From the IMG/VR virus record IMGVR_UViG_3300044712_000378, positions 1 through 40,332 of that record: a stretch of DNA of 40,332 nt, one strand, 5' to 3'. The notes beneath the pieces are model-generated. The model was not told where the DNA came from, did not search any database, and was given only the letters and a program-made list of their open reading frames with translations. This DNA is from a virus. Positions 34,048 to 40,332 of the stretch are shown here, one piece after another. Both the position numbers and the translations under genes were made by a program. Position 1 is the stretch's first letter, and each line of letters starts with the position of its first letter.

Positions 34048-34265
34048 TTCCCCTCCTTGTTTGATTTCCGTTGTATCCGCTCGGACGGCTTTCAAACACC
34101 ATCCCGGCCCATAAAAATATCATCCCGTCTGGAAACAACGCGCACAAGCCCTTTTGCAAACTATTTTCGCTTTTCTTAAAATATTTCGCTTCCCCCTATT
34201 GACTTAATATCAAGACGGCGCTATTCTCTACCCATACACAAACACAAACGCGAGGAGAACTAAAA
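34048..34265. other. Divergent intergenic region
   Basis: About 218 bp separate the leftward 103-residue gene from the rightward short operon. The segment near 34150-34200 is A/T-rich. A good rightward promoter lies at 34199-34227. I see no convincing leftward promoter for the gene at 34047 and no other conserved structure. Confidence 0.6.
34199..34227 (+). promoter_or_regulatory. Sigma70 promoter of the short rightward unit
   Basis: TTGACT (34199-34204) and TATTCT (34222-34227) are separated by 17 bases, 38 bases before the first start codon. The match to consensus is good at both boxes. It would transcribe the 73-residue gene, the hammerhead ribozyme and the RHH-like gene. Confidence 0.75.
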
Positions 34266-34487
34266 ATGGAAAAGATAAAAAGATACACAGTTGACGTAAC
34301 CAAGGTTGACGGAATGAAAAGCACCTATTTTGTGGCCGCTCTTTCCTGCGGCGGGGCCGAAAAAGCAGTCCTTAAAAATGTCTACAACGCCAAGTACGCG
34401 CTGGCCGAAGAAATGACCGAACTCGGCCACTTCTACCCTGATCTAATCTCGGAGGCAGTAGGGCGCGAATTATATAATCGCCTTTAG
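34266..34487 (+). CDS. Small hypothetical protein before the ribozyme
   Basis: A 73-residue protein from ATG 34266, preceded by GCGAGGAGAACTAAAA. It reads MEKIKRYTVDVTKVDGMKST, then YFVAALSCGGAEKAVLKNVY and a helical end. It may adopt a strand-helix fold, but I do not recognise the family. Its stop TAG (34485-34487) provides the first base of the hammerhead ribozyme. Confidence 0.65.
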   Translation: MEKIKRYTVDVTKVDGMKSTYFVAALSCGGAEKAVLKNVYNAKYALAEEMTELGHFYPDLISEAVGRELYNRL

Positions 34488-34538
34488 GCCGAAACGCCCT
34501 CCGGGGCGTCCACCCGTCAGGCGGGTGCTGATGAGGCC
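34487..34538 (+). ncRNA. Type II hammerhead ribozyme
   Basis: All parts of a permuted hammerhead are present in order. Stem II 3' strand GGCC (34487-34490) is followed by GAAA (34491-34494). Stem III is CGCCC, loop TCCG, GGGCG (34495-34508), then T and C (34509-34510), the cleavage dinucleotide U-H. Stem I is CACCCG, loop TCAGG, CGGGTG (34511-34527). The invariant CTGATGA (34528-34534) leads into the stem II 5' strand GGCC (34535-34538). Stem II can extend as TTT (34483-34485) with AAA (34540-34542) across an A/C mismatch. Cleavage is predicted between 34510 and 34511, which splits the transcript between the two small genes. Confidence 0.88.
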
Positions 34539-34551
34539 CAAAGGAGATACT

Positions 34552-34716
34552 ATGAGAGTCCGCAACAAAGAGATCGCCACCAAAAACCACGCCGATTTTC
34601 GAGCACGGATGAAAAAGATGGGCTACCGCCAGGTGTCGGTTTGGGTGCTGGATTGCGATGCGCCCAAAATCCGCGCCTTGGCCGAGGAACTGAAAAACAA
34701 AAGGCCATCCGGTTAG
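34552..34716 (+). CDS. Small RHH-like DNA-binding protein
   Basis: The start at ATG 34552 follows AAAGGAGATACT, just 13 bases after the ribozyme. The 54-residue product (MRVRNKEIATKNHADFRARM, then GYRQVSVWVLDCDAPKIRA and LAEELKN) has a short strand VSVWV and two helices, as in phage RHH proteins of the 'YRQVSVWVP' type. It resembles the 47-residue protein at 39729-39872. It is a candidate transcription regulator; its targets are unknown. Confidence 0.65.
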   Translation: MRVRNKEIATKNHADFRARMKKMGYRQVSVWVLDCDAPKIRALAEELKNKRPSG

Positions 34717-34996
34717 GGATAGCCTCTTGCCGACGAGCGGGGTTCTTTAGGCTGACAAATAACGTTCGGTCGGTATCACTCGTTCGACATGCCGTCGCGT
34801 TCAAACGATTCCCAAGACCGTATTTGCCTTTTGGGACTTACTCCGTCGAGTGGAACCCTATCCATCGGTGCCTTACTTCATGCTCGCCTGAAACGCCGGT
34901 AGGTTTAACCCCATCTTCGGCGTCTTGCTGCCCGTAGGCAGTCTCACAAGCCCGTTTCCGGGTACTGTGCGAGTATACTGCAACCTGTTGTGGGCG
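34717..34996. other. Non-coding region with dense hairpins between convergent operons
   Basis: No convincing ORF with a ribosome site is seen. Many short stems can form: TCCCAA/TTGGGA (34810-34815 with 34831-34836), ACTC/GAGT (34840-34851), ACGCCG/CGGCGT (34893-34898 with 34918-34923), CTGCC/GGCAG (34928-34941) flanked by CTTG/CAAG (34924-34927 with 34947-34950), and CCCG/CGGG (34951-34962). It lies where the rightward unit and leftward early operon converge. It may be a structured RNA or a tandem terminator region, but no T-run follows these stems. Confidence 0.5.
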
Positions 34997-35113
34997 TCAA
35001 CACGATCCCCCGAAAATGGCCTTGAACATGTGAACCCACAATACAACCGCCATCCACAAACCTATCGCCACGACAATGAAACCCATAGCCACGCCTAAAA
35101 ATTTATTCCACAT
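34997..35113 (-). CDS. 38-residue membrane microprotein
   Basis: ATG 35113 follows GGAGGGATTGAGC, three bases below the HNH stop. The product (MWNKFLGVAMGFIVVAIGLW, then MAVVLWVHMFKAIFGGSC) has a single long hydrophobic segment. It is the last gene of the leftward early operon. Function unknown. Confidence 0.6.
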   Translation of the reverse strand: MWNKFLGVAMGFIVVAIGLWMAVVLWVHMFKAIFGGSC

Positions 35114-35115
35114 GC

Positions 35116-39875: not shown

Positions 39876-40332
39876 CTAAGCCTTGTTTTTGTGCTGTAGG
39901 AGGTGGGGCTTGTTCCCTTCGGGATAATAAACGCTCCACCCTTTTGCAGATGAATACGTTCTCCGCTGGGAGCTTTCCCGCATCTCGCCGACCTGGGAGC
40001 TTCCCCGCATCTCGCCGACCTGGGAGCTTTCCCACATCTCGCCGACCTGGGAGCTTTCCCACATCTCGCCGACCCGGGAGCTTCCCCGCATCACGCCGAC
40101 CTGGGAGCTTTCCCGCATCTCGCGGACCTGGGAGCTTCCCCGCATCTCGCCGACCTGGGAGCTTCCCCACATCTCGCCGACCTGGGAGCTTCCCCGCATC
40201 TCGCCGACCTGGGAGCTTCCCCACATCACGCCGACCCGGGAGCTTCCCCGCATCTCGCCGACCTGGGAGCTTTCCCACATCACGCCGACCTGGGAGCTTA
40301 CCCACATCTCGCCGACCTGGGAGCTTCCCCAC
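39876..40332 (-). CDS. Repeat protein spanning the contig ends, C-terminal part
   Basis: This reading frame enters at 40332 without a start and stops at TAG 39878-39876. It is in phase with the gene that starts at 659 and leaves at position 1. It carries about 13 of the 9-residue units (for example VGEMWGSSQ and VGVMRGSSR). The end is a 30-residue non-repetitive tail, RRTYSSAKGWSVYYPEGN and then KPHLLQHKNKA. At the joint one Met codon is missing from a unit, which would read VGEWGSSQ. A 9-residue ORF in another frame (GKLPGRRDV) is open through the array by the chance that the period is 27; it is not preferred because no start precedes it. Confidence 0.7.
   Translation of the reverse strand, partial: WGSSQVGEMWVSSQVGVMWESSQVGEMRGSSRVGVMWGSSQVGEMRGSSQVGEMWGSSQVGEMRGSSQVREMRESSQVGVMRGSSRVGEMWESSQVGEMWESSQVGEMRGSSQVGEMRESSQRRTYSSAKGWSVYYPEGNKPHLLQHKNKA
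39967..40332. repeat. 27-bp tandem repeat array, right arm
   Basis: A partial unit (39967-39984) precedes twelve full 27-bp units from 39985 to 40308, and the last unit is cut to 24 bases at 40332. Together with 1-307 there are about 25 units. If the ends are joined, three bases (ATC) are absent at the joint compared with the period. Substitutions are confined to the same few positions as in the left arm. Confidence 0.95.

Follow-up and report, generated by a model that had tools for sequence, protein, structure and literature searches.

What hammerhead ribozymes do in phages has been a question since 2011, and the stretch of viral DNA analyzed here (the window), which comprises the 40,332 bases of an entire IMG/VR virus record, poses it at a single locus: what would a self-cleaving RNA accomplish between two small genes? 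The terminase of this record is encoded on the minus strand, and the ribozyme and its two neighboring genes form a plus-strand unit that adjoins it. The features of this unit are as follows.

34199-34227, plus strand: candidate promoter of sigma70 type, TTGACT-17-TATTCT, preceding the two genes (consensus scan, 9/12 matches)
34266-34487, plus strand: 73-aa upstream ORF with stop codon TAG at 34485-34487 (open frame; no family match)
34487-34538, plus strand: type II hammerhead of the compact subclass, without a pseudoknot between loop I and the 3' tail (RF02276, 39.1 bits; R1, 65.7 bits, E 2e-16)
34487-34490, plus strand: stem II 5' strand GGCC, which pairs with 34535-34538 (covariation in 46 relatives)
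34491-34493, plus strand: core GAA; the next base, A34494, belongs to the A-U closing pair (invariant in alignment A3)
34494-34509, plus strand: stem III hairpin ACGCCC-UCCG-GGGCGU (sequence, folding, alignment A3)
34510-34511, plus strand: predicted site of cleavage, 3' of C34510 (C17) (by homology with the hammerhead core)
34511-34527, plus strand: 17-nt stem-loop I CACCCG-UCAGG-CGGGUG (all six pairs covary in relatives)
34528-34534, plus strand: catalytic core CUGAUGA (sequence, RF02276, alignment A3)
34535-34538, plus strand: stem II 3' strand GGCC, 4 bp with 34487-34490 (covariation in relatives)
34541-34546, plus strand: Shine-Dalgarno sequence AAGGAG of the downstream ORF (two bases 3' of stem II)
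34552-34716, plus strand: 54-aa downstream ORF, weakly MazE-like (PF11455, E 3e-4, below cut-off)

A complete type II hammerhead lies between two small genes

When the whole window was searched against all 4227 Rfam families, the type II hammerhead family RF02276 matched at 34487-34543 (39.1 bits, gathering cut-off 37, E 1.2e-4), and no Rfam family matched the rest of the window at its cut-off. We also used a covariance model built from 46 other phage hammerheads, all of them compact relatives, from which the window copy was excluded (model R1). R1 recognized the window copy with 65.7 bits and an E-value of 2.1e-16 and returned no second match in the window up to E=10, which makes this copy the sole hammerhead found there. 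The initial annotation, which described a complete type II hammerhead at 34487-34538 and called for a covariance-model search whose failure would count against it, is thus borne out by both models.

The conserved core CUGANGA ... GAAA and a UH cleavage site are present, and stems I and III are closed by loops while stem II is open, which is the type II layout. Stem III pairs 34494-34499 with 34504-34509 (6 bp including the A-U pair) around the UNCG-type loop UCCG, and stem I pairs 34511-34516 with 34522-34527 (6 bp and a possible U-G) around the loop UCAGG. The perfectly paired stems, the core and the cleavage site at 34510/34511 that had been proposed all have correct coordinates by sequence. 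The G of the upstream stop codon (34487) is the first base of stem II, and the Shine-Dalgarno sequence follows two bases after the last, with the downstream ATG at 34552, so the ribozyme begins and ends where the initial annotation had placed it. Loop I has no complement of at least 4 bases in the 3' tail. Such a pseudoknot is common in the family but not universal, and one of this size is likewise absent from 68 of the 135 type II pattern matches listed, which indicates that the pseudoknot does not decide type II membership. Judged by its sequence, 34487-34538 is a complete, intact type II hammerhead and a new member of a known family, for which self-cleavage is predicted on the 3' side of C17 (34510^34511).

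The window copy belongs to a compact subclass that the Rfam model misses

We define here a compact subclass of type II hammerheads by a 17-nt stem-loop I, a 4-bp stem II and an A directly before stem II, and the window copy has all of these features (alignment A3; 65.7 bits with R1). The loop I motif of the subclass is mostly G-U-N-A-N-G-C, which reads GUCAGGC in the window. Among viral hammerheads with a 17-nt stem-loop I, 57 of 65 take the compact form, and 45 of these 57 have an upstream stop codon at -4 to +1 nt. The compact share amounts to about a quarter of the viral type II matches sampled (65/253).

Alignment A3, which holds 46 members of the wider compact set and is nearly free of gaps, provided evidence for all three helices. 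Among the 46 relatives, 192 cells were changed on both sides of a pair compared with 55 in shuffles, and the covariation score was 0.71 compared with 0.03-0.11 when the partner was slid by 1-3 columns. The 100% pairing in this alignment is partly built in, because a 4-bp stem II and a stem I of at least 5 bp were required of its rows; the diversity of pair types is less so.

At its cut-off, RF02276 gave no match in any of 13 loci that each hold a compact copy (13/13), and at a permissive threshold 4 of those loci appeared, with 26-27 bits. Surveys with the Rfam type II model therefore undercount phage ribozymes, since they miss the compact subclass. One further record (L153, G030) carries three compact hammerheads at 39.1-40.2 kb, which score 41-57 bits with R1 and all fall below the Rfam cut-off; its terminase is 57% identical to that of the window.

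Hammerheads accompany unrelated genes in many viruses

Gapped patterns gave at least 120 viral loci for type II with stem III GCC/GGC, at least 120 further ones for type II with stem III CCC/GGG, and at least 120 for type I; type II was also found at at least 119 loci in GTDB genome contigs. These sets are samples and not a census. The same core and stem III letters in type III order gave 2 viral loci, compared with at least 120 for type I and at least 120 for type II, a suggestive difference that is limited by the pattern. As an unbiased check, 369 bacterial genomes were searched for types I and III, and none were found; with these results we make no claim of a type III shortage in phages. 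A recurrent variant of the core has a U inserted directly after it (CUGAUGAU-G...), which occurs in 24/133 and 19/120 viral type II hammerheads among the matches listed and also in many type II copies of the genome contigs (e.g., L036, L045 and L109 in the viral and genome sets).

The initial annotation held that the context of the window ribozyme may be new. However, the same order of stop codon, hammerhead and Shine-Dalgarno sequence occurs at more than 100 viral loci, and type II hammerheads beside single prophage genes were described in 2011 (PMC3088659). Hammerheads between small phage genes are already known (Perreault et al., 2011), and the window presents their usual setting. Like the type II hammerheads of RF02276 (Perreault et al., 2011), the window copy has the core CUGAUGA, GAAA, the UC^ site and an open stem II, and lies between small phage or prophage genes; it differs from them in its 17-nt stem-loop I, its 4-bp stem II and its lack of the loop I - 3' tail pseudoknot. 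In prophage arrays with ardA (Agrobacterium, Legionella), hammerheads also punctuate short phage genes, and these arrays were proposed to cut long transcripts into single-gene mRNAs (Perreault et al., 2011; PMC3088659). Unlike those arrays, the window has one copy, between a 73-aa gene without a family and a weakly MazE-like gene. RF02276 members between small genes are also carried by the isolated and annotated Streptomyces phages R4, Paedore and Puginator, which resemble the window in this respect but have 4-7 copies in about 3 kb, other architectures, and only some copies flush with the stop. With 4-7 RF02276 matches each, these phages (loci L566, L568 and L571 for R4, Puginator and Paedore) would be good laboratory models. 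At another locus (L112:126-4240), five or more type II hammerheads flank successive small genes within 4.2 kb.

The flanking proteins of these loci are mostly singletons, without relatives elsewhere in the set (96/121 on the downstream side and 101/116 on the upstream side, among the matches listed), and those that are recognizable at relatives include DUF932, GemA, ArdA, ArdC and HU-like proteins. A MazE-like neighbor is seen at the window locus only, among the matches listed. Because the flanking genes are mostly unrelated, the ribozyme tracks the architecture of the mRNA and not the identity of the genes. The window hammerhead is not conserved at its place among terminase relatives: of 50 contigs that encode a related terminase, only 1 carries compact hammerheads, and there they lie far from the terminase. 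The portal relatives of the window virus are all distant (23-28% identity).

Phage hammerheads usually begin at the stop codon of the upstream gene

We examined the register of each hammerhead, which is the distance between the last base of the stop codon of the longest upstream same-strand ORF (at least 50 aa, called mechanically) and the first base of the first helix. Among the matches listed, the stop lies at -4 to +1 nt in 94/133 (71%) viral type II hammerheads, in 77/120 (64%) of those found with the separate stem III pattern, and in 59/123 (48%) of those in bacterial genome contigs, a set in which some matches are probably due to chance. Randomly chosen positions at these loci gave 1.6-1.9%, type II positions shifted by 10-200 nt gave 0-7%, and the antisense strand gave 2-5%. 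Keeping one hammerhead per locus left the register of the viral type II sets unchanged (71% and 65%).

The free space around these ribozymes is one-sided, with a median in the viral sets of 0 nt to the stop compared with 13-14 nt to the next Shine-Dalgarno sequence. The upstream gap was the smaller in 86 cases compared with 15 (p 3e-13) and in 81 compared with 11 (p 2.5e-14) in sign tests on the two viral sets; dense packing by itself does not account for the register. The compact subclass, which has no downstream pseudoknot needing room, behaves in the same way (40 compared with 3, p 3e-9).

Where the stop and the helix overlap by one base, as in the window, the stop is TAG in 25/29 and 32/35 cases. 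This preference is partly structural, because nearly all members of the compact subclass have an A before stem II, which itself mostly starts with G. For phage hammerheads of type I, the stop lies at the start of the helix in 36%, and other copies have it within the first helix and core. With the annotated genes of the Streptomyces phages the register is looser, with some copies at -2 to -4 and others at -12 to -33. Stop codons are not mentioned in the earlier description of these arrays (Perreault et al., 2011; PMC3088659), and in the open-access papers that we searched we found no report of a stop-codon register, so an earlier report is possible. Overlap with the stop codon is the rule across viral type II hammerheads, and the finding that phage hammerheads usually start where the upstream gene ends suggests that they serve as cut marks between genes.

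A model for mRNA punctuation and its alternatives

We propose, with a probability of about 0.78, that the window hammerhead is a portable punctuation element that acts in cis and would cut the two-gene message just after the upstream stop. The split of a two-gene mRNA that the initial annotation envisaged agrees with the position of the ribozyme between the two ORFs. The hammerhead would fold during transcription and cleave at 34510^34511, 23 nt past the upstream stop. Cleavage would leave the stem III hairpin, bearing a 2',3'-cyclic phosphate, as the 3' terminus of the upstream mRNA, and a 5'-OH followed by the stem I hairpin as the start of the downstream mRNA, whose ATG would lie 41 nt further on. 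One transcript would thereby yield separate single-gene mRNAs with hairpin-protected ends. In bacteria, 3' exonucleases are slowed by a hairpin at the 3' end of an RNA, and decay pathways that require a 5' phosphate act poorly on an RNA that starts with a 5'-OH and a hairpin, which would make both single-gene messages stable. A terminating ribosome covers roughly 10 nt beyond the stop and would here cover the 5' strand of stem II and the GAAA core; since the first helix starts on the stop codon, cleavage would have to await the departure of the ribosome. Within this punctuation model, we infer the activity of the ribozyme, the protection of the ends and the interplay with the ribosome.

Folding of the growing transcript makes the hammerhead the predicted minimum-energy fold at 54-60 nt. 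The minimum-energy fold at full length is not the hammerhead (-30.1 compared with -27.3 kcal/mol), because the CUCC of loop III pairs with the Shine-Dalgarno sequence once the latter emerges. Hammerhead arrays are known to flank single prophage genes, some hammerheads self-cleave when expressed in E. coli, and a pseudoknot between loop I and the 3' tail speeds other type II members (Perreault et al., 2011; PMC3088659). Counting against punctuation, the window copy lacks this rate-enhancing pseudoknot, occurs singly and is not conserved at its site, and several Streptomyces-phage hammerheads sit 10-30 nt from the stop.

The pairing of loop III with the Shine-Dalgarno sequence suggests a translational switch, in which the uncut CUCC blocks the GGAG of the downstream gene and cleavage frees it and turns the gene on. 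Folding of the window copy agrees with such a switch, as the Shine-Dalgarno sequence is paired in the uncut RNA (unpaired with p <=0.02 at most bases) and largely free once cut, but the nearest-neighbor model used for folding omits the tertiary stability of the hammerhead. Across 217 relatives, mean Shine-Dalgarno accessibility was 0.54 intact and 0.57 cut (p 0.05), intact RNAs were more accessible than those with shuffled 5' parts (p 4e-5), and only 5 cases showed the predicted behavior. We consequently reject Shine-Dalgarno release as a general function and consider it improbable, if plausible, for the window copy. A similarly low probability falls to a dead relic that keeps the hammerhead shape and has lost cleavage or any consequence of it for the phage. 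Its single copy, its lack of conservation among terminase relatives, its lack of a pseudoknot and the inactivity in vitro of some natural hammerhead candidates (PMC3088659) are consistent with a relic; however, all core bases and helix pairs are intact and R1 matches strongly, and decay would have cost some of these. That chance inverted repeats merely resemble a hammerhead is hardly credible even in a GC-rich region where the minimum-energy fold at full length improves only moderately on shuffles (z -2.1), since the E-values of the Rfam search (1e-4 over all families) and of R1 (2e-16) refute it and since the register with stop and Shine-Dalgarno sequence is the same as at more than 100 other loci.

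The stop-codon register itself raises a stronger competitor, in which ribosomes that complete the upstream gene would keep the ribozyme from closing, and cleavage would report the level of translation or await its end. A stop within a few nt in 64-71% of viral type II hammerheads (among the matches listed), slack that is almost only downstream, and type I phage hammerheads that also often have a stop at or inside the first helix or core all point toward such gating, which we hold to be a tentative possibility. About a third of the viral members are out of register, however, and the register could be explained equally well by selection for the shortest 3' end or by compact genomes. Somewhat more doubtful is the broader proposal that phage hammerheads form a translation-registered class with the stop built into the first helix, in which the terminating ribosome would gate self-cleavage and couple mRNA processing to upstream translation. 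For the punctuation model, the register, the slack confined to the downstream side and the independence from gene identity would tie the role of phage hammerheads to translation termination. The findings that merit further study are the general register and the compact subclass overlooked by the Rfam model.

Flanking genes and ends of the virus record

The 73-residue upstream frame and the downstream frame are open as initially described, and the description of the downstream gene as RHH-like comes down to a sub-threshold hint: against Pfam, the 54-aa protein resembles MazE-like PF11455 with an E-value of 3e-4 and 21 bits, where the cut-off is 22. We found no relative of this protein in phages, plasmids or IMG/VR, and its AF2 model is of low confidence (pLDDT 64). 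The 73-aa protein has no match in Pfam or PHROG and no relative found in phages or IMG/VR, and its predicted structure is likewise of low confidence. A MazE-like antitoxin or toxin-antitoxin pair is not supported, as PF11455 lies below its cut-off and the upstream protein has no family match. The promoter candidate at 34199-34227 is of a quality that a shuffled region yields 1.6 times by chance.

About 400 nt separate the 54-aa ORF from an HNH endonuclease encoded on the minus strand; in this stretch (34717-35115), which has no clear gene, we found no Rfam match at cut-off and no unusual folding. A 27-nt tandem repeat occurs in the same orientation at both ends of the record, at 1-307 (about 11 copies) and at 39966-40330 (about 13 copies), which points to a record that is probably circular or redundant at its ends. 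A minus-strand ORF at 39876-40307 reads this repeat as a repeated SSQVGEMR/W-like peptide.
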